Origin: an uncultured Bacilli bacterium
Lineage (GTDB): Bacteria > Bacillota_I > Bacilli_A > RF39 > UBA660
Assembly (NCBI GenBank): GCA_947589735.1
Contig: CANQCR010000012.1
Span: 1-43,851 of the forward strand
DNA length: 43,851 bases
Reading direction: 5' to 3'
The notes beneath the pieces are model-generated. The model was not told the origin of the DNA. It saw nothing but the letters and a program-made list of their open reading frames with translations, and did not search any database. Both the position numbers and the translations under genes were made by a program. This document shows positions 2,779-38,971 of this stretch, in pieces; the stretch's first letter is position 1; each line of letters starts with the position of its first letter.

Positions 2779-3804
2779 GTCTCAATACAACTAAGAATGT
2801 CATAAGTCTAAAACCGGGCTACTACGGAACTGTTTTCTCGAACTGTTTTAATACCATTTAAGATGTCATAGATCTAAAACTTAACTGCAGTGTTGGAAAG
2901 ACACCATTTTGTTTTAATACCATTTAAAATGTCATAGATCTAAAACTATACTTTGTTACTCGAAAAAGTAATTTAGGTTTTAATACCATTTAAAATGTCA
3001 TAGATCTAAAACATATAATTTTATCTCTCCTACTATCTATTAGTTTTAATACCATTTAAAATGTCATAGATCTAAAACTGTAGGATGCTGCAGCTGCATG
3101 ATGTGCTTGTTTTAATACCATTTAAAATGTCATAGATCTAAAACATCAGTGAAATATTTAATAACAAATCTATAGTTTTAATACCATTTAAAATGTCATA
3201 GATCTAAAACAGTAACACCATTTTGTTTAACTAATTTATCGTTTTAATACCATTTAAAATGTCATAGATCTAAAACTAGATAGCATAAAACTTCTTTCAT
3301 ATTTTGGTTTTAATACCATTTAAAATGTCATAGATCTAAAACTACTTCTAAGTAATTGACAAAACATATCCCGTTTTAATACCATTTAAAATGTCATAGA
3401 TCTAAAACTCTTTACAAATTATGATTTTATTACAAATGGTTTTAATACCATTTAAAATGTCATAGATCTAAAACTAATTGTAGGTTCACCAACACCTAAA
3501 ATACGTTTTAATACCATTTAAAATGTCATAGATCTAAAACCTATTTGTTTTATGTTCTCTATCAACTTTAGTTTTAATACCATTTAAAATGTCATAGATC
3601 TAAAACTATCTATAGGGTATAGATTTTTTTGTCTATGTTTTAATACCATTTAAAATGTCATAGATCTAAAACATAAAATATTTGCATTCGTATTTCCCTC
3701 AAGTTTTAATACCATTTAAAATGTCATAGATCTAAAACCTGTATATATGGACTATGATAGATACGAATGTTTTAATACCATTTAAAATGTCATAGATCTA
3801 AAAC
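2779..3804 (-). CRISPR. Type II-A CRISPR array, 16 repeats and 15 spacers
   Basis: There are sixteen 36-bp repeats at an exact 66-bp period (starts 2779, 2845, 2911 and so on to 3769) and fifteen 30-bp spacers. On the minus strand the repeat begins GTTTTAGATCTATGAC and ends GGTATTAAAAC, like the streptococcal type II-A repeat, so the array is transcribed in the same direction as the cas genes. Fourteen repeats appear identical. The repeat at 2845 has one change. The last repeat, 2779-2814, differs at eight positions, which marks the old trailer end. The leader and newest spacer (3739-3768) are on the high-coordinate side, next to csn2. Confidence 0.98.
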
Positions 3805-3887
3805 CTCAAATTGTGTTTTAAATCTTTTTATTAGCATAGAGAACTAATTATTTTAAATGGTAAATCTATAACATTAAACACATTATA
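3805..3887 (-). promoter_or_regulatory. CRISPR leader with ATTTGAG anchor and array promoter
   Basis: The seven bases next to the first repeat (3805-3811) read ATTTGAG on the minus strand. This is the leader-anchoring sequence described for streptococcal type II-A loci, where it directs new spacers to the leader end. About 70 bases further upstream an extended -10 element, TGTTATAAT (TATAAT complementing 3882-3887), overlaps the csn2 stop codon and could start the precursor crRNA near 3873. No good -35 element is seen. The leader is therefore only about 78 bp long. Confidence 0.7.
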
Positions 3888-4554
3888 ACATAAATTCATC
3901 GAGATTACTATCGATGATAAGTTTATGTTCATTATCAATTGATGGTCCATAACTTTGACTATCAATTAAAAGCACATTAACATTATTATATATAGCATAT
4001 TTATATAGTTCTGTTAGTTCATCTTTGGTTAAATATTGCTTTAGATTAATAAATATTATCACTTGATGAAGTTTCAATAAACGATTAATATCAATTATTA
4101 AAAGTAAGTTATCTAATAGTTCTTCTTTCATACTTATTGATATTTTCATAGATTTTAAAAATAAATCATTTTCATATTCTTGTTGAATACTTAATGGTAA
4201 ATCAATTGATTTAAGAATTTTATTTAACGAGTTATATATTTGTCGGTAATTCTTCATAAGTTCTTGAATCATTTCTTCATCAAAACAACTAGCGATGTTT
4301 TTATATAATTCTGTTAGTGTTTTTTTACTATTAATATCTAATTCAAAGTAGTTGTTAATAATTTCTAAGGATGGATAGAAGTATTTTTCCTCATTATCTA
4401 TAAATTGAAAATCATCAATCTTTTGATTATTACTAATGTCAAATAACCCTTTAACAAATCGATAAAAATATTTTTTGTTCTCAATCTCGATAGCTGTCAC
4501 ATAAGATTTATCAAGAATTATTTCGTTATCAATGAAAGAAACATTTAATTTCAT
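3883..4554 (-). CDS. csn2: CRISPR adaptation protein Csn2
   Basis: A 223-residue protein matching Csn2 in length, position and character. Csn2 forms a tetrameric ring that binds double-stranded DNA ends and works with Cas1, Cas2 and Cas9 in capturing new spacers. It is the defining gene of subtype II-A. The N-terminal part is beta-rich, the middle (about 85-130) strongly helical, and the C-terminal part contains hydrophobic strands such as HQVIIFINL and VNVLLID, as in the split P-loop-like core. Its ATG overlaps the cas2 stop codon by four bases, indicating translational coupling. Its own stop codon overlaps the likely -10 element of the array promoter. Confidence 0.9.
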   Translation of the reverse strand: MKLNVSFIDNEIILDKSYVTAIEIENKKYFYRFVKGLFDISNNQKIDDFQFIDNEEKYFYPSLEIINNYFELDINSKKTLTELYKNIASCFDEEMIQELMKNYRQIYNSLNKILKSIDLPLSIQQEYENDLFLKSMKISISMKEELLDNLLLIIDINRLLKLHQVIIFINLKQYLTKDELTELYKYAIYNNVNVLLIDSQSYGPSIDNEHKLIIDSNLDEFML

Positions 4555-4856
4555 AATACAATAAGCCTTTCTTCAGAATCAATAATTTTAGTATTAGGCT
4601 CCCCTATTACATATTCAATTTGTGAGTACTGCTTTTCCGTAATAGTAAGGATTTGTATTAGCCCTTTTTTAGGAGCTTTTTTCTTTAATCTACTAATTAG
4701 TAATTGAGATTGTTGTGTACTTAAAGTAATTTTAGAATAAACTGACTCTTGTAACATTATAAAACCATCATTAATAAGGAATTTTCTAAATTTGTTATAA
4801 TTCCTTTTATCTTGAGCATAAATATTTGGTAAATCAAAAAATACTATTGTTCGCAT
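4551..4856 (-). CDS. cas2: CRISPR-associated endonuclease Cas2
   Basis: About 101 residues starting MRTIVFFDLP. The Asp at residue 8, at the end of the first strand of the ferredoxin-like fold, is the conserved Cas2 metal-binding residue. With Cas1 it forms the integrase that inserts spacers. The reading frame stays open further upstream, but this ATG is chosen because it follows GAGGG by a suitable distance, lies four bases after the cas1 stop codon, and gives the normal Cas2 length. The gene ends in an ATGA overlap with csn2. Confidence 0.92.
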   Translation of the reverse strand: MRTIVFFDLPNIYAQDKRNYNKFRKFLINDGFIMLQESVYSKITLSTQQSQLLISRLKKKAPKKGLIQILTITEKQYSQIEYVIGEPNTKIIDSEERLIVL

Positions 4857-4860
4857 TGTT

Positions 4861-5733
4861 CTATCCCTCGTAGAAGATGAATTCTTCATATTCACTATCA
4901 CTATCCATACTATCTAAAGTATTTTTAACATAAGTTTTAAGTATATCTTTTAAAGTGTAACTTTTATTGTGATACATAAACTTGTCATTAAAAATATTTA
5001 TTAAATCTAATTTATATTTACTATCAAATGCTCTCTTTCGATTATAATAGACAAAATTATCAATAATAATTCGAAATGGTTCCATTAAATCACAAGAGAG
5101 ATTAAACTCATTAAACTCATTCTTATGATGAATCCCAAGTTGTGTTAAGTATCCATTATTAACAACTTCTTTATTAATAGTAGATAATAAAACAGCATAT
5201 CCATAGTTTAGGGCTGCGTTTATATCATCGTTATTATTTCTAACAAATGTTTTACCAAATAAAGAATTAAAATATACTTTGGCAGCATGCCCTTCCCTAT
5301 TTGTTTTATCACCTATTGTAACTTCATCAATATAACTTACAACTAAATCATACCCATCAGATTCAACTTTATTCAATAATAATCCTTGATTCAATATTTT
5401 ATTTTTGACTATTTTTTGCCATAATTTATCTTTTTTTTCGTTACTCCATTTAGTTTGCATAATAATTTTTTTACTTGAATTGTGACTTGAATAATAACTT
5501 TGTAGTTCTCCAAAGGGATTATGTTTTTCATCACAAAAGATGATATTAATCTTGCTATCAGCCAATTCTTTTAACAGATATGAAGAAATAGATACTGAAA
5601 TGCTGTCAACGATAATAGTATCTATTTCTGATAAATGAATATACTTTTCATCCATATCTTGTTTAACTACTAAAAATCTGTTTTTATAACTTATTTTTGC
5701 TGGATTAGAAATAACAACAGTTCTAAAACTCAT
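4861..5733 (-). CDS. cas1: CRISPR-associated integrase Cas1 (type II)
   Basis: A 290-residue Cas1. The catalytic metal ligands are visible: Glu147 in NREGHAAKVYF, His202 or His203 in LGIHHKN, and Glu218 in CDLMEPFR. The N-terminal beta domain and C-terminal helical domain have the usual type II length. Cas1 with Cas2 integrates captured DNA next to the leader. The start overlaps the end of cas9 by 11 bases and the stop is four bases before cas2, so the four cas genes form one tightly packed operon. All catalytic residues are present, so adaptation is predicted to work. Confidence 0.95.
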   Translation of the reverse strand: MSFRTVVISNPAKISYKNRFLVVKQDMDEKYIHLSEIDTIIVDSISVSISSYLLKELADSKINIIFCDEKHNPFGELQSYYSSHNSSKKIIMQTKWSNEKKDKLWQKIVKNKILNQGLLLNKVESDGYDLVVSYIDEVTIGDKTNREGHAAKVYFNSLFGKTFVRNNNDDINAALNYGYAVLLSTINKEVVNNGYLTQLGIHHKNEFNEFNLSCDLMEPFRIIIDNFVYYNRKRAFDSKYKLDLINIFNDKFMYHNKSYTLKDILKTYVKNTLDSMDSDSEYEEFIFYEG

Positions 5734-8700
5734 ATTTTCTTGTCCTTAAACCGGTTACTGATTTGTTAATTACAATAGCATTTTTAATAATTCTATCATT
5801 CTTTTTACCAAAGGCTGAAGAGTAACTAGCATCTAAAAATTTCAAATTAGCATTGGTACTATTGCATTTTAATAAATGAAGTAATTCGGTAACTAATTTT
5901 TCATATATTTCTAGATTTTTATTTTCTTCTAAAGTAGGTAGAAACATCATTTTCATATTTTCAACTAGGTTTTGATATAAAACATATTCTTTCTCAACTT
6001 TATGGATAAGAAGTTTAATGAACGATTTAAGTTTATCGATATATAAATAATCATCAATAGCCTTTTTATGTTTATTTAGCAGGCGATCAAGCATAAGTTT
6101 ATATTCAATTGTTTCTGCTTTTGATAATTTTAACTCTTTAGCATTACATACTTCAATAGTGTCAGATGCACCAACTAAGTAACATATTTGACCATTCCAA
6201 TTTAACTCACTAAAAAATGGGATAGGTTTACTTGCAATAGTAATTTTATCATCTGAAGATAGATTTAATAAATTGCGGATATATTTGTTAAGTTCTTCAG
6301 TATCCTTTTTATCAATGTAGATTGGTATGCCAATTAACCTTTGATCTTCTTTATTCCTTTTGGTATATTTAACTGAAATAGCATATGATGGATTTATAGA
6401 TGAATAAGCACCATATATGTTGGTTGGTAAGTCTTTCTTTAAAGGAACACCCTTATCCCCTTTTTTTAATTTTGTTTGATTATAAAATTGCCCAGTTCTA
6501 ATTTCTGTTTTTTTACTAATCAAAATATCATTGCGATATAGGTGATTTTCAACAGTCTTTTTAAACTCGTCGATATCTAGTACTTCACCTGTTTTAGAAT
6601 TATAATGAACAAAAGCTGAATCAATACTATTAATAACATATCCATATTTCAAATCATTATATTTCTTTTCTTCAATTAATTTTTTAGTTAATTCTTTTAA
6701 ATCATCAAAATTAATTTTTAAATTACAATGACTCTTATATTCACCAAGGACAGCAGCTAAATAAGCATCATGAGCATGATGAAAATCATTCAAATCACGG
6801 AATTTATATAGAGCAAATTTTTCACGATAATTATGCGAAAGAGCAGCTGGTAAGTAAATAATTTTACTATTTTGGTGAAGAGATTGTAATATGTTAGCGA
6901 CATGCTTAGTTATTTGTCTTGTTTCAACTAATTGACGATTAATAAATCCTTCAATATCTTCATTTTTGAATTCCGAACGTTTTAAATTATAAAGTTTTTT
7001 AGCAGAGATTAAATTAATATCTTTTAAATGTTCCCACCATTTTTTGTTAGTATAGGTTCTATATTCACTTGGTAAAACAAGACTAGCAGCTTTATTTTGA
7101 TTTTCTTCTCGTAATACAAGTGCTTTATTATCGATAGAATCATTTTTAATAATGGTTCTAGGTAAAATATGATCTACTTCATATTGATCTAGACAATTAA
7201 TATCAAGTGGTTGACCAGAGTATAGGCTTTTGCCCTCTTGAATAAAATATAAAAACATTTTTTCACTATTTATTTCGTTGGTATCAAGTTCACCTTTTAA
7301 TCTTTTATATTCGTTAATACTATCTTTTGATGCTGTATAAAGTTTATTCAAGTATTCTTTTCTATCATCTTTTCTTTGTTTTGCTTCATCGCCTCTAGCC
7401 ATTTCAATACTAATACTACTAGGTTCATAACCGATATAAGAAACAAGCTCTTCAACAATTTTTAAGGCTTGCCATATACCTCGTTTAGTAGATGGCGAAG
7501 TTGCAAGCTCATCAACCATCTGATAATTTAATTTACCGTTTTCACTACTTTGATTTATTTTGGCAATCATTTCTTGAAAGCCATACTTGTCATTATTGAT
7601 AATTTGCATAAAGTTTTCATCGGTTTCCCACATAATATCTATTATTGATTTTTTCGTTGATGTTGCTTCATCATAATAATACGGTGTGGTAAGAAGACGA
7701 TTTGATAAACTACTCCATCCAGAATATTTCTTTTTGATAATATTTTTAAGTACAGGTTTTAATATTGGATAAGTATTTTCAATTTTCTTTGCTAAAATGT
7801 CTTTGTCTTCAAAGATGGTAATCCAACGGATAATTACTTCAGCATCATCAGTAGTAAGATTAGTATCCTTAAAGAAACCATCTGGTCCAAAGAAATCAAT
7901 GTATGACCCCATATTATTAGCAAATTTTTCTTTAGCAGAGTATCCTGTTACTGAAATATCACCATTATACATATCAAATTCACGAGATTTAATTAAAAAC
8001 TCTTTAAATTTTTTATCTGTTAGAGTTCCTGGCGTTACACGGAAGAACTCATCGATAAGGCGATGTTGGAAGTCTAGTGTTAATCTTTGATCGTTTACAC
8101 GAATTTGCTTTAGTTCATTTAGAACTTTATATTCTGAATATAAGATAGAATTATTAGGCATAGCTGGTTCTTCTAGTAAATATGTACAATGTCCTAACAT
8201 TCTTTCTATAAATAATTCAGCAGATTTTTCTTTATCAACTACTTCATCAAAATTATAAGGTGTAATTTTAACATTCGGTATTTTTCTTTTCATCCAAGCG
8301 AAACGATGTTTATCACTATCGATAAGTGGTCCTACATAATAAGGTATTTTAAATGACAATAATTTAACTAGTTTATATTCATTATTAATCATATCAAGTA
8401 AAAATGGATAATACTTACCTTGATTTTGGATAATTAGTTTTAGTTCTTCTTTATTAATCTGATATGGATATTTACCATTTTCTGTACTAGTAATTCTTGG
8501 AAGTAAATCACCATTATTCATTTTGATAGCAAGATTAGATAATTTTTCAATTAAGGTAGAATCGGTAAGGGTTGGAACAATGTTATCGATATGCTTTTGT
8601 AATTCTTTAACAAAGTCATCGTATGTTTTAGTGTTATGAATATATAAGTCATATAAGCAAGTATATTTTTCGGTTGAACGGAAAATTTTATTATATTCCT

Positions 8701-9721
8701 TGCGATTACTATTAAAAATAGCTTTTAAATCTTTTAAGTCTTGCTCATGGTTTAGATATTTTTCAACCATTAATGGCGAGATGAGACAGTTTTCCCTGTT
8801 GCCAAACAAGTTTTTCAAAAATAACATATCATACATTTCTTTCATTAAAGCTAATGTAGATATTCTATTATCTAATACCTTTTCAATATTATCATATTTA
8901 TCATCGAAGTCACTACCATTAAAGGATATTTTAAGATCTTCTTCTACATCCAAGTGAAACATATCTTTAAGTGAAAAACTATTTCCACATACAAGCTTAC
9001 TAAAGTTATCAGCAAATTTTTTATAGTCACCAAAAAATATATTCAAGTAATCTTTTAATTCTTTTTTGCGGTCATTTTTACTTTTTATTAAACATATTGT
9101 TTCTAATTTTTGATAATCAATTTGATTGATATAGTATTCATCAAATTCTAACTCAGGACATGCTTGAGATAAATCACTAAACACTTCTTTAAGTTTTTGT
9201 TTAATATCTAGATTATTTACTTTAAACTCATTCGCTCCATATAAGAAATTACCGCGATATTTAATAATATGATGTATAGCTAAATAAATAAGTCTTATAT
9301 CTTGTTTACTAGGGTTAGTTATAAGTTCATTGCGTAAGTGATAAATAGTTGGAAATTTTTCGTTATATTCTTTAACCTTAATTTTTTCTTCTTTCGTTAA
9401 TGGGTGCTTTTTATGTGTTGGATCTTTGTCTTCAAAATAAAAACTTTCTTGTAGTTTAAAAAAGAAATTAGGATCTACTGCCTCAATATCATCTTTAAAG
9501 GCTTCTTGTAATAATTTAATACGTTGCCGGCGCCGATCATATCTTCTTCTCGTACTACGATATCCTCTTCTTTCTAAAGCGGTATTTGCTTCTTCAAATA
9601 ATCTAACACCCCAAAGTGCTTTATTACCTTTTCGCATAACTTTATAATTATCTTTTAAAACAACAGCCCACCCTACTGATGTTGTTCCAATATCTAACCC
9701 AATATTATATTCTTTGTTCAT
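5723..9721 (-). CDS. cas9: CRISPR effector nuclease Cas9 (type II-A)
   Basis: A 1332-residue Cas9 of the long type II-A class, an RNA-guided double-strand DNA nuclease. RuvC-I has Asp10 in NIGLDIGTTSVGWAVV. An arginine-rich bridge helix follows (about 58-80), then the helical recognition lobe, RuvC-II Glu773 in SIEMARGDE, HNH His851 in YEVDHILP, RuvC-III HHAHDAY with His982 and Asp985, and a C-terminal PAM-interacting domain ending in VTGLRTRKYEF. All catalytic residues are intact. The frame stays open 48 bases upstream, but the start at 9721 is preferred because it has an AAGGAAGG ribosome binding site and aligns Asp10 with family numbering. The C-terminal residues differ from the S. pyogenes arginine pair that reads NGG, so the PAM cannot be assumed. 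Confidence 0.98.
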   Translation of the reverse strand: MNKEYNIGLDIGTTSVGWAVVLKDNYKVMRKGNKALWGVRLFEEANTALERRGYRSTRRRYDRRRQRIKLLQEAFKDDIEAVDPNFFFKLQESFYFEDKDPTHKKHPLTKEEKIKVKEYNEKFPTIYHLRNELITNPSKQDIRLIYLAIHHIIKYRGNFLYGANEFKVNNLDIKQKLKEVFSDLSQACPELEFDEYYINQIDYQKLETICLIKSKNDRKKELKDYLNIFFGDYKKFADNFSKLVCGNSFSLKDMFHLDVEEDLKISFNGSDFDDKYDNIEKVLDNRISTLALMKEMYDMLFLKNLFGNRENCLISPLMVEKYLNHEQDLKDLKAIFNSNRKEYNKIFRSTEKYTCLYDLYIHNTKTYDDFVKELQKHIDNIVPTLTDSTLIEKLSNLAIKMNNGDLLPRITSTENGKYPYQINKEELKLIIQNQGKYYPFLLDMINNEYKLVKLLSFKIPYYVGPLIDSDKHRFAWMKRKIPNVKITPYNFDEVVDKEKSAELFIERMLGHCTYLLEEPAMPNNSILYSEYKVLNELKQIRVNDQRLTLDFQHRLIDEFFRVTPGTLTDKKFKEFLIKSREFDMYNGDISVTGYSAKEKFANNMGSYIDFFGPDGFFKDTNLTTDDAEVIIRWITIFEDKDILAKKIENTYPILKPVLKNIIKKKYSGWSSLSNRLLTTPYYYDEATSTKKSIIDIMWETDENFMQIINNDKYGFQEMIAKINQSSENGKLNYQMVDELATSPSTKRGIWQALKIVEELVSYIGYEPSSISIEMARGDEAKQRKDDRKEYLNKLYTASKDSINEYKRLKGELDTNEINSEKMFLYFIQEGKSLYSGQPLDINCLDQYEVDHILPRTIIKNDSIDNKALVLREENQNKAASLVLPSEYRTYTNKKWWEHLKDINLISAKKLYNLKRSEFKNEDIEGFINRQLVETRQITKHVANILQSLHQNSKIIYLPAALSHNYREKFALYKFRDLNDFHHAHDAYLAAVLGEYKSHCNLKINFDDLKELTKKLIEEKKYNDLKYGYVINSIDSAFVHYNSKTGEVLDIDEFKKTVENHLYRNDILISKKTEIRTGQFYNQTKLKKGDKGVPLKKDLPTNIYGAYSSINPSYAISVKYTKRNKEDQRLIGIPIYIDKKDTEELNKYIRNLLNLSSDDKITIASKPIPFFSELNWNGQICYLVGASDTIEVCNAKELKLSKAETIEYKLMLDRLLNKHKKAIDDYLYIDKLKSFIKLLIHKVEKEYVLYQNLVENMKMMFLPTLEENKNLEIYEKLVTELLHLLKCNSTNANLKFLDASYSSAFGKKNDRIIKNAIVINKSVTGLRTRKYEF

Positions 9722-9750
9722 TTGACTTCCATCCTTCCTTATGATACAAT
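9722..9750 (+). promoter_or_regulatory. tracrRNA promoter
   Basis: TTGACT at 9722-9727, a 17-base spacer, and TACAAT at 9745-9750 form a strong sigma-A promoter that predicts a start at about 9757. The -35 box abuts the cas9 start codon, and the promoter covers the cas9 ribosome binding site on the opposite strand. Confidence 0.8.
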
Positions 9751-9756
9751 GTAGTT

Positions 9757-9852
9757 GTCTTAATACCATTTAAGATGTCATAGAGAGTTAAAATAAAGGC
9801 ATAGCCCTAAATACTCAATCTATTGAGAACAGTCGCTTAGGCGACTTTTTAT
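9757..9852 (+). ncRNA. tracrRNA
   Basis: The anti-repeat (about 9757-9795) copies nearly the full repeat, including ACCATTTAAGATGTCATAGA, then GAGT and TAAAAT, which reproduce the bulged lower stem of type II-A crRNA:tracrRNA duplexes. Next come the nexus (GGC 9798-9800 with GCC 9804-9806), a stem-loop (CTCAA 9814-9818 with TTGAG 9823-9827) and a terminal hairpin (AGTCGC 9831-9836 with GCGACT 9841-9846) followed by T residues. This is the same architecture as the S. pyogenes tracrRNA. It is divergent from cas9 and needed for crRNA processing and cleavage. Confidence 0.95.
9831..9851 (+). terminator. tracrRNA terminator
   Basis: A six-pair stem with loop TTAG is followed by TTTTTATT. It is both the last tracrRNA hairpin and an intrinsic terminator. 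Confidence 0.9.
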
Positions 9853-18543: not shown

Positions 18544-18564
18544 AAAAAGAGCTAGGCTCTTTTT
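18544..18564 (-). terminator. Terminator of the adhesin gene
   Basis: AAAAAGAGC (18544-18552) pairs with GCTCTTTTT (18556-18564) with a 3-base loop, and the minus-strand T run continues. It overlaps the adhesin stop codon, so read-through into the sortase may be limited. Confidence 0.8.
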
Positions 18565-20359
18565 ACGCATGTTGTTGATTTAATTTAAATATACTAAATC
18601 CAGCTAAACCAACGAATCCAATAAGACCGGCAACGATAAGAGTTATATTCATATCAGCGGTTACAGGAATTGGTGAGTTATACATAACAACCGTTTTTTC
18701 AACTCCACCATCAGCGGTTACTTCAAACTCAACGACATCTTCACTGATGCCATATCCTTTTGGCGCACGGGTTTCAATTAATGTATACTTACCAGGTTTT
18801 AAATCAGTAAGATAATGTGGTTGTTTAGTTGAAGTCCATTCAGCAACAACATTACCATTAGCATCTTTAACAACTAATTTAGCACCAGGTACTTCTTTTT
18901 CATTAGTTATATCTCTTTTACTAATTTTAACTAAAGTATTATCTGGAATTGGGGTGTTGTACATAACGACAGGTTTTTCAACTCCACCATCATTTTCAAC
19001 AACAAAATTAATTGTTTCACTTGATAACAAGTATCCTTCAGGAGCTATAGTTTCTGTTAAACTATATTTTCCTGGCGTAAGTGATTGAATATAATGTGGT
19101 GATGTTGTTGAAGTCCACTCATCAACAACTTTTCCTAAAGCATCCTTAAGAACTAAATGAGCTCCCGCAAGTTCGGCTTTAGTCGTAATATCTTGTTTAC
19201 TTATTTTAACTTTTGATGGATTTTTTGAATTGACTAATTTAACATCAATAGTTTGTCCAGCTTTGGTTGTAACATTTACTGTTGCAGCTTTAATATATCC
19301 AGCTGGAGCTGATTCTTCAATAATAGTATAGGTACCAACTGGTAAATTACTAATTGTATATGGGTTATTCGTACTATTAGTTGTCCAACTAGCTACAACA
19401 TCACCTGCAGCATTTTTAACGGTTATTTTAACACCGGAAAGTTTTACTTCGCTTCCTGATGAAACATCAACTTTAGTAATTCTTAAAGCTGTAATAGGAT
19501 TTATGGTTGTAGTGGTTGATGCTGAAACACTAACTGCTTCATTGTACATCAAGCCGATATTTTGATATGATGAACTACCAGCTGTATAACGATAAATCTT
19601 TTTAGCTGTACCGGTTGCTCTAGCATCGACCCTAATTGACATATTCGTACCAACCTTACTAGTTGGAATAGAAACATAGAAACTCTTACCAGCTGGGACT
19701 TTAACACCACTGGCATTTTCTTTACCATCAACGACAACTTTAGCATCAGCTGGAGCGTTAATTAAGTAAATGTTTGCATTACTATAACCTGATCCACTAA
19801 TGGTTATATTATTACTTACATATTTTGTACCATCGCTTGATAATTTCATCGATCCACCATTAGTAATAGATAGCTTAGGTGTTGATAATTGATATCTACT
19901 AGCAGCATTATAAAGAGCAATTGCCCCACTACCAAGACGACCATTGGCATTAAGATTACTTGTCTTTAATGAACCTTGCGCTAACCATATCGCTAACTGG
20001 GTTACATAATATCTTTCATCAGCTGAATAGCTATTTCCAAGTAGACTACTATTCCAGTTACCACCATATCCATTATTTAGGATATAAACAAGGCTTGGCG
20101 TTGTAAGTTCACGATCAAGACGTAACTTAGAGCCGTAAGTAGGAGCGGCTAGAACCTTATTAAGACAGAAACCAATTCTATCGCCTTGACTTGTTCCAAC
20201 CCACTTATAAGATGTTGTTGAACCAACATACTGGTCAACCCCTTTTAAATTACGTTTATAAAATGTAATCGTACTATCAACGGCATTTACTTTTGTCATA
20301 GTAAACACAGTTAGGAAGACGACAACAAATAAACCTAAAATTCTTTTAATGTTTTTCAT
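18563..20359 (-). CDS. Cell-wall thioester adhesin with three SpaA-type repeats
   Basis: A 598-residue surface protein. A signal peptide (cleavage after about Ala26) precedes a thioester domain. Cys65 in GFCLNK and Gln121 in VTQLAIWLAQG are positioned to form the internal Cys-Gln thioester used by Gram-positive adhesins to bond covalently to host molecules. Three SpaA/CnaB domains follow (about 291-380, 383-475 and 478-562). Each has an N-terminal lysine (Lys296, Lys388, Lys481) and a Glu in the E(S/T).AP.GY motif (348/349, 436, 529) that could form isopeptide bonds. The C-terminus has NSPIPVTAD (561-569), a membrane span and a short tail, and no LPXTG. Promoter and RBS (GGAGGAG) are strong. 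Confidence 0.9.
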   Translation of the reverse strand: MKNIKRILGLFVVVFLTVFTMTKVNAVDSTITFYKRNLKGVDQYVGSTTSYKWVGTSQGDRIGFCLNKVLAAPTYGSKLRLDRELTTPSLVYILNNGYGGNWNSSLLGNSYSADERYYVTQLAIWLAQGSLKTSNLNANGRLGSGAIALYNAASRYQLSTPKLSITNGGSMKLSSDGTKYVSNNITISGSGYSNANIYLINAPADAKVVVDGKENASGVKVPAGKSFYVSIPTSKVGTNMSIRVDARATGTAKKIYRYTAGSSSYQNIGLMYNEAVSVSASTTTTINPITALRITKVDVSSGSEVKLSGVKITVKNAAGDVVASWTTNSTNNPYTISNLPVGTYTIIEESAPAGYIKAATVNVTTKAGQTIDVKLVNSKNPSKVKISKQDITTKAELAGAHLVLKDALGKVVDEWTSTTSPHYIQSLTPGKYSLTETIAPEGYLLSSETINFVVENDGGVEKPVVMYNTPIPDNTLVKISKRDITNEKEVPGAKLVVKDANGNVVAEWTSTKQPHYLTDLKPGKYTLIETRAPKGYGISEDVVEFEVTADGGVEKTVVMYNSPIPVTADMNITLIVAGLIGFVGLAGFSIFKLNQQHA

Positions 20360-33548: not shown

Positions 33549-33576
33549 AAAAATAGGACGTAAACATCCTATTTTT
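33549..33576 (-). terminator. Terminator of smc
   Basis: AAAAATAGGA (33549-33558) pairs with TCCTATTTTT (33567-33576), followed by T residues on the minus strand. It overlaps the smc stop codon. Confidence 0.8.
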
Positions 33577-36523
33577 TATCGTCTTTAAGATCTTCTAATC
33601 TAACACTGACAAGTTTACTAACACCGGACTCTTGCATCGTTATACCATATAGGATATCAGCAAACTCCATCGTTTTCTTTTTGTGAGTAATGATGATGAA
33701 TTGCGTTTTACCTTTTAGTTTTTGAATATATTCACCAAAAGATTCCACGTTAACTTCATCTAGGGCCGCTTCTACTTCATCTAGAACACAGAAAGGTACC
33801 GGACGAGATTTTAAAATAGCAAATAGTAAACTGATTGCCGTAAATGTTTTTTCACCACCGGATAGAGCCGAAATGCTTTTTAAACTCTTACCTGGTGGGG
33901 ACGCAACAATTTCAATACCCGTTTCTAAGATGTTATCGGGATTAGTTAAGGTAAGTTTAGCGGTTCCCCCTTTAAATAATTCCTTGAAAGTAATTTCAAA
34001 GTTTTGATTAATAATGTTAAAAGTTTTCATAAAACTTGTTTCCATTACGTCATCCATTTCCTCGATTATTTCTAGCAAGGTATTTTCAGCTTTTGTTAAG
34101 TCTTCTTGTTGTTTAATTAAAAATTCATAGCGTTCACTTACTCTAGCATATTCTTCAGGAGCCGTAGCGTTAATTGGTTCTAACTCACGCATCTGACGTT
34201 TTAAAGAACTTATTTTATTTTTAACTAAAGTAACATCCATATCTAATTTATAGTGTTCTTTTGCATACTCAAAAGTCATACTATAAGTTTCATTAAGTTG
34301 ATTTAATAAGTTATCAAGTTTAACATCGTTACGATTAATTTCAATTTCTAAGTCTTTAAGTTCATTATTCTTTTCATTATATAAACTATTATCCTTTTTT
34401 GATAAATAAGTTAATTCATCTAAATTACTATTTAAACTTTCCAAATTATTTTTTAAATTATTTAATTCGTTAGTTAATTCATTTTTCGTATTTAAGGCTT
34501 GGTAGTAATCGGATAATACTTTCTCTTCTTCTTCGCTTAAAGTACCATTTAAAATGTTTTCGGTACCTTTAATATTAGTTTGAATACTAAGGAGTTTTTC
34601 TTTTAAAGATTCTTTCGTGTGATGCTTACTATCGATATCTTCTTTAGTGAGTAACATATCTTTAGTAACTAGATATAATTTATCTTCAAGGGATTTTAAT
34701 TGATAGTCTAATGCATTTAAATTGTTTTCAATATCCTTAATCTTCTTTTCATTGGTACCTTGTTCTTTTAGATATTTTTCTAAATCATATTTTTCGGTTA
34801 TAACATTTTTTTGAATAATATTACCACCGGTAATCGATCCACCAACGTGAAATAACTCTCCTGATAAAGTAACAATGCGGTAGCGATACTTAATCAATTT
34901 ACTAATGCTGTTGGCATCATCGATATCTGATACAACGATAACATTACCGAGCTGATTATCGATAATATTATCATAAACAGCATCATTTCTAACAAGATTA
35001 GAAGCGATATCAACAAATCCGCGATGAGATTTAATTGTCTTTAAAACATCATCATCAATACCTTTACCTTTAATAATATTAAGAGGTAAAAAAGTAGCCC
35101 TACCAAGATTGTTTTCTTTAAGATAATTAATAGCTTCCTTAGCTCTTACTTCATTATCAACGATAATATTGTTAATAGCTGCTCCAAGCGTTGTACTAAT
35201 AGCTTTAGAATATTTTTCTTCTACTTCAATAATACTTCCAATATTACTATGAATGCCTTTAAGACGTGGGTTATTTAAAACATTTCGAACGGAACTTGGG
35301 ATAGTATTACTATTTTCAATGCTCTCTTTTAAATTATTAATTTTAGTTGTTAAAATGTTTTGATTACGTAAAACATTAGCTAAAGATATCTCTTCATTAC
35401 GCTTTTTTTCATTAACATCAGTTATCTCTTTTTCTAATTTAATCTTATCTTTATTAAAACTATCGTACTTATTATTTAAATCATCAATAGTTAATTTTAG
35501 ATTATCAATATTATTATTTGTTGTTAATTCTTCTTCTTTTAAAGAAACAATCTCTTTATGTAACTTAGTATCATCAACTTCATAATTTTTACGTTCTAAA
35601 ATGATTTCTTTTTGACTATTAATTCGTTCGGCTTTGGTTGTAATATCCATTAGTTCTTGTTGTTTTGAAGAAATAGTACTTGATAGTTTACTAATGTTAT
35701 TTTTACATTCTTCAATTTTAATTTCATATTTATTATTACTAATAGAAATATTAGTTATCTCTTCTTTTAATTTTTCAACTTTATTCTTGGTATCATTAAA
35801 ATGTTCATTGATATTATCAATATCATATGTAATAGCGCCAATTTCTAAACTTTTTAACTCATCTTGTAAATCAAAGTATTTTAAAGCCTTAATTTTTTGT
35901 TCGCGTAATGGTTCGACTTGGACTTCTAATTCTTTAATAATATCATTAACCCGATCCATATTTTGATGGGTTTTATCTAATTTATGGATAGCTTCTTCTT
36001 TTCTTTTCTTATACTTTAAAACACCAGCGGCCTCTTCAAACATCGATCTTCTTTCTAATGGACGTTCACTTAAAATATTATCAATCTGCCCTTGACCGAT
36101 GATATTAAATCCTTCTTTACTAAATCCACTATCCATAATTAAATTAGATAGATCTTTAAGACGGGCCTTTTCACCATTAATAAAATATTCATTGGTTCCA
36201 TCTTTATATAGACGTCTTTTAATGGCAACCTCATCTTCATCAATGGCTAAATAGTGATCTTTATTATCAAAGATTAAGGTAACATTAGCAACGGATAAAG
36301 GTTTGCGACTTTTACTACCAGAGAAAATGATATCCGTCATACTCTCATCACCACGTAATGATTTAACGGATTGTTCACCTAATACCCAGCGGATAGCATC
36401 AACAACATTGCTTTTACCACTTCCATTAGGTCCAACAATACCGGCAATATCTTGATTAAGTTCAATAACAGTATTATCGGCAAATGATTTAAAGCCTTGG
36501 GTTATAATTTTTTTTAGATACAT
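33569..36523 (-). CDS. smc: Chromosome segregation ATPase SMC (short form)
   Basis: A 984-residue SMC protein, which with ScpA and ScpB loops and compacts the chromosome. The N-terminal head has Walker A GPNGSGKSN (about 32-40) and the R-loop region LRGDESMTDIIF. Coiled coil runs from about 165 to 395, the hinge is about 400-520 (NPRLKGIHSNIGSII to GGSITGG), and a second coil follows to about 830. The C-terminal head has LSGGEKTFTAISL and Walker B FCVLDEVEAALDEVN. B. subtilis SMC is about 1186 residues; here both coils are shorter, as in Mollicutes. The start at 36523 gives MYLKKIITQGFKSFAD with GGTGA upstream. Confidence 0.95.
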   Translation of the reverse strand: MYLKKIITQGFKSFADNTVIELNQDIAGIVGPNGSGKSNVVDAIRWVLGEQSVKSLRGDESMTDIIFSGSKSRKPLSVANVTLIFDNKDHYLAIDEDEVAIKRRLYKDGTNEYFINGEKARLKDLSNLIMDSGFSKEGFNIIGQGQIDNILSERPLERRSMFEEAAGVLKYKKRKEEAIHKLDKTHQNMDRVNDIIKELEVQVEPLREQKIKALKYFDLQDELKSLEIGAITYDIDNINEHFNDTKNKVEKLKEEITNISISNNKYEIKIEECKNNISKLSSTISSKQQELMDITTKAERINSQKEIILERKNYEVDDTKLHKEIVSLKEEELTTNNNIDNLKLTIDDLNNKYDSFNKDKIKLEKEITDVNEKKRNEEISLANVLRNQNILTTKINNLKESIENSNTIPSSVRNVLNNPRLKGIHSNIGSIIEVEEKYSKAISTTLGAAINNIIVDNEVRAKEAINYLKENNLGRATFLPLNIIKGKGIDDDVLKTIKSHRGFVDIASNLVRNDAVYDNIIDNQLGNVIVVSDIDDANSISKLIKYRYRIVTLSGELFHVGGSITGGNIIQKNVITEKYDLEKYLKEQGTNEKKIKDIENNLNALDYQLKSLEDKLYLVTKDMLLTKEDIDSKHHTKESLKEKLLSIQTNIKGTENILNGTLSEEEEKVLSDYYQALNTKNELTNELNNLKNNLESLNSNLDELTYLSKKDNSLYNEKNNELKDLEIEINRNDVKLDNLLNQLNETYSMTFEYAKEHYKLDMDVTLVKNKISSLKRQMRELEPINATAPEEYARVSERYEFLIKQQEDLTKAENTLLEIIEEMDDVMETSFMKTFNIINQNFEITFKELFKGGTAKLTLTNPDNILETGIEIVASPPGKSLKSISALSGGEKTFTAISLLFAILKSRPVPFCVLDEVEAALDEVNVESFGEYIQKLKGKTQFIIITHKKKTMEFADILYGITMQESGVSKLVSVRLEDLKDDKK

Positions 36524-36568
36524 ACTATTCACCACTTTAACATTATTAATTATATCAAAAAACACTAA

Positions 36569-36601: not shown

Positions 36602-38698
36602 TTATTTCAAGGTGTAAAAATGATCAGATATAACGAATTCTTTAGAGCCAAAATAGGTAAATGCCCAAATAGCTTCGGCATCAGGTTCACTATTGATAAG
36701 TTTTTGACCATCTTCTATAGGTAATAAATAAGCAATATATGATAAAACGGTTGCATCAGCTAAAGATGTACTAACAACACTAACACCAGCGGTATCATGA
36801 TTTGGCTCTAATCCGGTGGTAGGATCAACGATAAGAGAATATGTTTTACTGCCATCTTCATAGTATTTTTGATATCGTCCTGTTGAAGCCACTGCTTTAT
36901 TTGTAATCCGTAAAGTAGTTAAGACATCATCATCATTTTTATAAGGGCCAGCCACTATAATATTATATTTACTATCTTTAGTTGGATGATTACCAACAAC
37001 TATATTACCATTGGATGAAATATTATAAGTTGTAATACCAAGAAGATTTAATGTATCACATACACGGTCCGTTGCATAAGCAAACTTTATATTGTCTAAA
37101 TTAATGTTAGCATGATTATTTTTAATAGTATCATTATCTAAAAGAACAATATCCTTAATGTCTGGTAGTGCATCCTTTAATTCTTCATCGGATGGATGAC
37201 CTTTCTTTTTTTCATAATATGAGTCCCAAAGATCGATTAGGGCGCCACTATTAATATTAAACTTACCATCACTTTTTTCATACCAATCATAACCATATTT
37301 AATTAATTGGTAAAGATTATGGCTAAGTTTAATAGTATCATCATGAGATGTATTATTATAAATCATTGATAACTCACTATCTTCATTAGTGCGGTCAGTT
37401 AGTTTATCATAAGTGTCATAGATATTTTGGGCTTCATCCAAGGCTCTATTTGCCGTTGATTCATCTTTCGCATATAGCGTAATTTGAATCTCACTATCCA
37501 TGCTCTTAATCGTTTTTTGATATTCTTTTCCCTCTTCTTCTTTATTATGACTATAAATAGACTCAAGACCTGTAAACTTACTAAAATTATCTGTTTTAAT
37601 CATAAGTCCAATAAAGAAAGCAATCATACTAAGGATAAGCGCTAAATTTCTAAAATACATAACCTTAGACATTTTAACTTTTTCGGGTTTGTTTTTCTTT
37701 TCCATTTTCATCACCTCTTTATAAGTTTGGGCTAAAAGCTTACCAACACTTACAATATCTTTCTTCTTGGCTACCTTATAACCATTTTTAGTTAAATCCG
37801 GTAGTTTTCCTTCTAAAATAAGAGTTACTTTTGAAGTAAACTCATCAATATCTTTAGCTTTATAAACGACTTTATCCGTTTCATATTCATCAAAGATAGG
37901 AATATCTCTAATTAAAGTTGGTATTTTTGATGTTAGAGCCTCAATAATAGGGATTCCTTCCGTTTCCTCAAGCGTTGGAAAAACGTATAAATTAGCTCCG
38001 CTTAAAGCTTTTTTAATCATATCTTGTTCAACATATCCGGCAAACGTTAAATTAGGTAGTTTAGTGTGAACGGCTTTTCTAATTTTTCGTGGTGAGGCCC
38101 ATAAAGGACTTTCACCAAACCAAATAAACTTATATTCAGGTAATCTTTTAGCTAAAGTGACAAAATCAAGAATTCCTTTACGTTCGATATAAAGACCAAT
38201 GCCAACGACAACTTTATCCGTCTTTTTATAGCCATAAGCTTTTCGAAATGCCATACCATCTTTATCATTTCGTTCAAAGAAAGAGGTATCAACCCCATTA
38301 CTAATAGCTTTAATTGGAGCATCTAGATTATATCCTTCTAGTATTTTTTTAGAATATTCGGTGGGAGTTACAATGATATCACCAAGGCGGTAACACTTGG
38401 AAATCCACTTTTTAAATAAAGGAGAAACAAGGTTACTAAAAAGAAAAGAATTACGAAAATCTTCTTCTGTCGAATGGGCATGATAAATAACTTTTTTACC
38501 AGCTTTCTTAACTTTTTTAGCGAAAAAATAAGATTTAGGCCAATAAGTATTAATATGTAAAATATCAAAATCATCCTTAGGATCAGTTGTATAGTCAATG
38601 TTATTATCTTCTAAAGCTTGCATTTGATGATTTATAGCTTTACCAAGGCCAGATTTTCTAATTGTTTTATAACCCTCTGTATATAATAAAACCTTCAC
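36602..38698 (-). CDS. Fusion of GT4 glycosyltransferase, membrane span and ApbE-like domain
   Basis: A 698-residue protein with three parts. Residues 1-335 are a GT4 (GT-B fold) glycosyltransferase like bacterial glycolipid synthases: KSGLGKAINHQ near 15, SNGVDTSFF, GLYIERKG, and the EX7E pair Glu245/Glu253 in LEETEGIPIIEAL. One membrane span lies at about 344-368. Residues 400-698 resemble ApbE, the extracellular FAD:protein FMN transferase: INSGALIDLW, INLDNIKFAYATD (where ApbE has DLGGIAKGYA.D), STGRYQKYY, LIVDPTTG and SLADATVLS. The His common in ApbE before 'IxDP' is Leu here and the GG motifs are altered, so flavinylation may be lost. GTG at 38698 is the chosen start (AGGTGAT upstream). 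Confidence 0.85.
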   Translation of the reverse strand: MKVLLYTEGYKTIRKSGLGKAINHQMQALEDNNIDYTTDPKDDFDILHINTYWPKSYFFAKKVKKAGKKVIYHAHSTEEDFRNSFLFSNLVSPLFKKWISKCYRLGDIIVTPTEYSKKILEGYNLDAPIKAISNGVDTSFFERNDKDGMAFRKAYGYKKTDKVVVGIGLYIERKGILDFVTLAKRLPEYKFIWFGESPLWASPRKIRKAVHTKLPNLTFAGYVEQDMIKKALSGANLYVFPTLEETEGIPIIEALTSKIPTLIRDIPIFDEYETDKVVYKAKDIDEFTSKVTLILEGKLPDLTKNGYKVAKKKDIVSVGKLLAQTYKEVMKMEKKNKPEKVKMSKVMYFRNLALILSMIAFFIGLMIKTDNFSKFTGLESIYSHNKEEEGKEYQKTIKSMDSEIQITLYAKDESTANRALDEAQNIYDTYDKLTDRTNEDSELSMIYNNTSHDDTIKLSHNLYQLIKYGYDWYEKSDGKFNINSGALIDLWDSYYEKKKGHPSDEELKDALPDIKDIVLLDNDTIKNNHANINLDNIKFAYATDRVCDTLNLLGITTYNISSNGNIVVGNHPTKDSKYNIIVAGPYKNDDDVLTTLRITNKAVASTGRYQKYYEDGSKTYSLIVDPTTGLEPNHDTAGVSVVSTSLADATVLSYIAYLLPIEDGQKLINSEPDAEAIWAFTYFGSKEFVISDHFYTLK

Positions 38699-38743
38699 AT
38701 CTATCACCTAGATCTATTATATCATATTTTGATAATAAAAATA

Positions 38744-38971
38744 TCATTCATTGATATTAACAAGAATGACATCGGTTCCAATTTTTTTAATTTGTTGCCA
38801 TTTTATTTCGACGGCCTTACTATTTAAAAACGATAATAAGAAATGATATTTTTCAACAAGAAGAACAACGGTCTTACCATCTTTATCAATACTTACATCA
38901 ATGATATTACCAATACATTTACCATCACTAATATTAATGACATCCTTGGTTTGTAAATCAGATAAACGCAT
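38744..38971 (-). CDS. YlmC/YmxH-family PRC-barrel protein
   Basis: A 75-residue single PRC-barrel protein. The sequence MRLSDLQTKDVINISDGKCIGNIIDV followed by a short beta-barrel and a C-terminal IGTDVILV is the family pattern. YmxH/YlmC proteins are common in spore formers and are often annotated as sporulation-related, but their molecular role is not known. Length is normal. It precedes the fusion gene on the same strand, with 45 bases between them, and RBS AGGTGA is well placed. Confidence 0.88.
   Translation of the reverse strand: MRLSDLQTKDVINISDGKCIGNIIDVSIDKDGKTVVLLVEKYHFLLSFLNSKAVEIKWQQIKKIGTDVILVNINE

Follow-up and report, generated by a model that had tools for sequence, protein, structure and literature searches.

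Proteins annotated as ApbE are taken as a sign of protein flavinylation and of extracellular electron transfer. In the Listeria enzyme FmnB, catalysis relies on Asp301-Ser257-His273, and activity is abolished by the K190A, R262A and H273A substitutions (PMC8906456). FmnB is served in Listeria by EetB (PF07456), a FAD-export subunit often encoded next to apbE and eetA (PMC9973259). We describe here a glycosyltransferase (GT) fused to an ApbE-fold domain, a new combination of known parts; no description of a GT-ApbE fusion or of an ApbE pseudoenzyme was found in the open-licence literature, an absence that is itself weak evidence.

The fused gene, encoding 698 aa, occupies positions 36602..38698 of the minus strand in the window, by which we mean the whole analysed stretch of 43,851 nucleotides from an uncultured Bacilli bacterium. 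Its minus-strand reading frame, from 38707/38698 to 36602, is single and has no internal stops, and the N-terminus MKVLLYTEG conserved in relatives points to initiation at the GTG at 38698, 5' of which lies an AGGTG-like stretch, with the GTG at 38707 as a possible alternative. The gene is flanked upstream by that of a small PRC-barrel protein (38744..38971, minus strand) and downstream by smc (33569..36565, minus strand), which lies directly downstream in most members of the genus that were checked. A plasmid search returned no records covering 80% of the query. Elsewhere, the window carries a type II CRISPR-Cas locus (2779-9769, minus strand) with Csn2, Cas2-like and Cas1-like frames, a 1348-aa Cas9 and a repeat array of 66-nt period at about 2779-3874, as well as a surface protein (18563-20359, minus strand) of adhesin-like architecture that combines SpaA repeats and a thioester (TED) domain.

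The original prediction, made from the letters of this DNA, proposed the domain order glycosyltransferase, membrane span and ApbE, which is borne out both by profile searches, with NCBIfam NF053513 above its cut-off and Pfam PF02424 matched, and by an AlphaFold2 model. The latter, computed from a 43-row alignment, has a mean pLDDT of 92 and features two well-formed domains, a GT-B fold and an ApbE fold (residues 388-698), between which lie a helix (345-368) and a loose linker (377-387), the mutual orientation of the GT and ApbE modules not being fixed (pTM 0.64).

Residues 1-333 (37700..38698, minus strand) are a GT4 glycosyltransferase of the known IagA/BgsA family, as seen from the NF053513 profile, the invariant motif columns and the GT-B fold. 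They score 474.9 bits against the NCBIfam model (cut-off 460), and the fused relative L072 scores 468.5 against the same cut-off. The EX7E motif of retaining GT4 enzymes is intact (ETEGIPIIE), with Glu 245 and Glu 253 invariant in 8/8 fused proteins, and the modelled domain superposes on the GT4 enzymes GlgM (Z 32.6), MshA and BshA. From what is known of the family, the GT half presumably glycosylates glucosyl-diacylglycerol at the cytoplasmic face of the membrane. For synthesis of diglycosyl-diacylglycerol destined for lipoteichoic acid, the genome offers pathway context: it encodes an Mgs-like first glucosyltransferase, whose gene adjoins a flippase-like one (L153 3786-4805), and an LtaS-like protein (L154 4532-6697), the Mgs-like and LtaS-like matches both scoring below curated cut-offs. 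Long Lys-rich C-terminal tails are found in the GT-only relatives L114, L117, L120, L135 and L148, and these are perhaps another means of membrane attachment.

The predicted span between the two domains is present as a helix at residues 345-368 (37595..37666, minus strand) in both sequence and model, and is followed by a low-confidence linker (residues 377-387; 37538..37570, minus strand; pLDDT <50). In stand-alone ApbE proteins, the counterpart of this helix is the N-terminal anchor. By the positive-inside pattern, the Lys-rich stretch that precedes the helix would place the C-terminus outside, which suggests a cytoplasmic GT and an extracytoplasmic ApbE-fold domain. The lipobox-like signals with which the decayed stand-alone ApbE relatives L129 and L095 start agree with such an external placement.

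Seven congeneric species (G002, G003, G005-G009) carry an uninterrupted version of this frame, at 53-63% identity. In G001 and G010 the GT and ApbE modules are encoded separately, with gene overlaps of 17 and 20 nt and ApbE starting where the fused proteins have their linker, and in G011 the locus is broken, likely through an assembly fault since it contains N's and the neighbouring smc is also broken on this poor contig. Separate genes in relatives had been put forward as a sign of assembly or sequencing error in the window. Split relatives do exist, in G001 and G010 as well as in other genera, but they show the origin of the fusion rather than an error, because the same fused frame is shared by eight species. 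That two genes were joined artefactually, as the separate, overlapping genes of two genus members might suggest, is thus practically inconceivable: the fused frame recurs with a matching linker position in eight independent species assemblies, a conservation that rules out assembly error and confirms the fusion as genuine. In a GT tree the genus forms one clade (SH-aLRT 100) with the split G001 and G010 placed beside the fused G002, a nesting that fits both fusion followed by fission and more than one fusion. Several genus members carry a divergent lipoprotein-like gene of 179-192 aa just upstream of the GT (L032 7983-8522, L033 5310-5849, L043 8649-9209, L044 4958-5518, L045 6038-6616), which is absent from the window.

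Residues 388-698 (36605..37537, minus strand) form a degenerate ApbE-fold domain, as judged from Pfam, model superposition and residue comparison with FmnB. Pfam ApbE (PF02424) is matched with an E-value of 3.8e-48 and 164.8 bits, against a cut-off of 25.6, over residues 402-680 of the 700-aa translation. The best structural match is Treponema Ftp (Z 35.8, 2.2 A over 306 residues), and superposition on FAD-bound Listeria FmnB (7esa) by VIA-align gives Z 33.8. Within this preserved fold, the catalytic triad positions of FmnB are substituted (S257T, H273L, D301T) and K190, R262 and T305 are replaced by Phe, Lys and Tyr, respectively, so that the loss of conserved residues noted in the original prediction is larger than claimed. 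For the structure of residues 400-698, whose FAD and Mg2+ sites were to be inspected, the ApbE fold holds whereas the triad, K190, R262 and T305 do not. It is very improbable that the domain transfers FMN in the usual way, and since it fails the catalytic features tested it should not be named an FMN transferase.

Among intact family members, no sites are as conserved as the FAD/Mg positions (mean entropy 0.23 bits vs 1.20 elsewhere), and among the fused proteins these positions vary more than the remainder (1.98 vs 1.35 bits), with FmnB-essential residues replaced differently in each species and no new consensus in the pocket. The fused proteins do hold the fold-core residues P505, W681, G572 and L553 (701-aa numbering). 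A variable pocket around a preserved core fits retention of the domain for its fold or surface, and not for catalysis or for a conserved ligand at the old site. Flavin binding through that pocket, one of the roles originally proposed, is unsupported. The domain might alternatively bind or cleave a nucleotide, or transfer a group to another acceptor, by means of its substituted residues, given that the ApbE fold is retained (Z 34-36), that some ApbE relatives act as FAD pyrophosphatases (PMC4767422), and that the catalytic His is still present in the otherwise decayed ApbE of L075 and L089. We consider such altered chemistry improbable, and less likely than the persistence of a mere remnant discussed below: the species-specific replacements leave the pocket with no shared new site, profile searches found no known acceptor families, and the EetB FAD exporter is absent.

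The genomic context of the domain matches its catalytic decay. The window genome contains a single ApbE by genome search and, at 95% completeness, yields no match to FMN_bind or NqrB/RnfD, so that the FMN acceptor sought on the original prediction's advice was not found among these families, acceptors of other kinds being possible. All 12 genomes of the genus lack matches to both NusG_II and EetB/PF07456. Across 57 genomes, ApbE was found in 35, NusG_II in 23, PF07456 in 22 and FMN_bind in 21. The 23 genomes with NusG_II are exactly those in which ApbE keeps His273 and Asp301, two of them having Thr for Ser257, and all 12 ApbE genomes without NusG_II, namely eleven of the genus and G013, have a decayed active site (Fisher p 1e-9 for the 35 genomes, kinship ignored). 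As predictors of an intact ApbE, FMN_bind and PF07456 are near-perfect but inexact and NusG_II is perfect in this 57-genome class sample. When 11 motif residues were scored, loci with partners keep nearly all of them and partner-less GT-ApbE pairs keep 1-7. Sixteen further genomes with a single ApbE each comprise eight that are decayed and lack NusG_II and eight controls with NusG_II and an intact ApbE. In an even family sample of 38 loci, 8-12 of 12 residues are preserved in the 29 loci that have partners and 2-7 in the nine that do not. Some of these loci come from genomes in the earlier sets, so that the independence of the sets is incomplete; the p-values all ignore kinship. Two ApbE proteins with partners (L187 2106-3089, L189 3367-4323) show an Asp301-to-Glu exchange together with an altered GGN motif; they may be at the outset of decay or may have a variant metal site.

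Other genera of the family have a GT gene followed by ApbE, NusG_II, a PF07456 protein and a small FMN_bind-like lipoprotein scoring below cut-off. The NusG_II protein is probably EetA, an assignment of our own, as the text of PMC9973259 gives no Pfam number for EetA. The lipoproteins that end the ApbE operon (L034 4722-5177, L037 69-563, L036 3592-4074) are FMN_bind-like and fall under the Pfam cut-off or are unmatched; they are probably a divergent acceptor family. The adjacency of GT and ApbE in these loci indicates that the two were neighbours within a flavinylation module before they fused. In G012 the order is GT-ApbE-NusG_II-EetB-lipoprotein-X-LspA-RluD-like and in L092, L093 and L142 it is GT-ApbE-LspA-RluD-like, where LspA and RluD denote sequence resemblance, profiles having been run for only some loci; comparison of the two arrangements implies that the partners were lost from the middle and ApbE stayed. 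Both this adjacency within a flavinylation operon and the way in which decay tracks the loss of partner genes had been overlooked in the original prediction.

Decayed ApbE is preferentially retained at the GT locus. In the family sample the GT adjoins 7 of 9 decayed, partner-less copies vs 6 of 29 partner-bearing ones (Fisher p 0.003, kinship ignored), the latter count being a lower bound because the edge of the contig is close by in a few of the loci with partners. The two decayed ApbE genes L186 (4562-5578) and L190 (3747-4712) are not beside this GT and have no flavinylation partners. The ApbE tree requires three changes between intact and decayed states, two of them forced by the starred branches, a count of independent decays that is rough since the decayed rows have long branches. 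One decayed lineage is common to several genera and has therefore lasted. Within fused pairs the ApbE half gives an apparent dN/dS of about 0.4-0.8, below 1 in every pair (for example, dN/dS of 0.48/1.18 for the window protein and L072, 0.74/0.93 for L075 and L077), and the GT half mostly about 0.1-0.2, dS being near saturation. The ApbE half is under continued purifying selection, of a strength that is uncertain owing to this near-saturation.

These data bear on the main competing explanation, in which only the membrane helix matters, as an anchor for the GT, and the external domain is a weakly constrained leftover in decay. Its faster protein-level evolution (about 3-5x that of the GT), its freely varying pocket sites and the Lys-rich tails of some GT-only relatives, which could bind the membrane in place of a helix, are all compatible with a mere passenger. 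We nevertheless regard this as rather unlikely, though the main rival, because a frame of about 310 codons has stayed open across eight species whose ApbE halves are only about 30-53% identical, dN/dS stays below 1 with the fold-core residues retained, and decayed ApbE also persists as a separate gene, where it gives the GT no anchor.

We favour, with a probability of roughly 55%, a reading in which the ApbE part is a pseudoenzyme left over from a lost flavinylation system, which has been kept and joined to the GT to serve it as an extracytoplasmic accessory domain. The probable new role envisaged for the ApbE part in the original prediction is in keeping with the loss of its catalytic residues, and we infer that this role is an accessory one, the external domain acting as a scaffold or regulator of the GT and not as an enzyme. 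On this account, an ancestral GT-ApbE-NusG_II-EetB-flavoprotein-like lipoprotein module lost its partner genes and the ApbE active site decayed, with the dead domain staying next to the GT; in the genus of the window it was joined to the GT, its anchor helix being reused as the membrane span. Under this accessory model, the IagA/BgsA/DGS-type GT4 enzyme would add a sugar to glucosyl-diacylglycerol at the cytoplasmic face, making a glycolipid anchor, and the ApbE fold at the outer face, transferring no FMN, would offer a docking or regulatory surface linking the synthase to later steps outside, for example by tethering the GT to the flippase or to the LtaS-like synthase. Against this reading stand the GT-only loci of many relatives, in which the GT works without an ApbE domain, as well as the unfixed arrangement of the two modelled domains, the decayed L186 and L190 away from this GT, the catalytic His still present in L075 and L089, and the nesting of the split genes beside a fused one.

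More tentatively, and with somewhat less confidence than we place in the individual case, ApbE-fold pseudoenzymes may constitute a class of domains that serve the GTs of lipoteichoic acid (LTA) glycolipids in an accessory, extracytoplasmic capacity, having lost their chemistry together with the flavinylation module at least 2-3 times in this Bacilli group and been recruited to couple inner glycolipid synthesis to outer LTA assembly. If the accessory role is real, the window protein would be, to our knowledge, the first ApbE-fold pseudoenzyme and the first two-faced LTA glycolipid synthase, with an enzyme inside and a domain outside. Clear ApbE homologues (E down to 1e-59) are kept in a gut Bacilli clade in which they almost certainly carry out no flavinylation; a Pfam ApbE match alone misleads, and a NusG_II or EetB companion is a far better predictor of activity.

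Among known systems, the window domain has in common with the FmnB/ApbE FAD:protein FMN transferases, represented by Listeria FmnB (PDB 7esa), the fold, the external placement and the anchor helix; unlike FmnB, it has lost the triad, Lys190, Arg262 and one Mg-site residue, is joined to a GT, and has no partner exporter or acceptor in its genome. Treponema Ftp (4ifu), a FAD pyrophosphatase/FMN transferase, is related by fold only and differs from it in its active-site residues. The EetA/EetB-associated clusters of Firmicutes (PMC9973259) have their counterpart here in related genera, which keep ApbE, EetB (PF07456), NusG_II and an FMN_bind-like lipoprotein, whereas in the window's genus every partner is missing and only a decayed ApbE is left. 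With the IagA/BgsA glycosyltransferases (NF053513) and the A. laidlawii DGS (NF049987), the fused GT shares full-length GT4 homology and the EX7E motif; IagA/BgsA members of other genera, of about 335 aa, end without a C-terminal domain, whereas the window protein continues into a helix and then an ApbE-fold domain of 311 aa.
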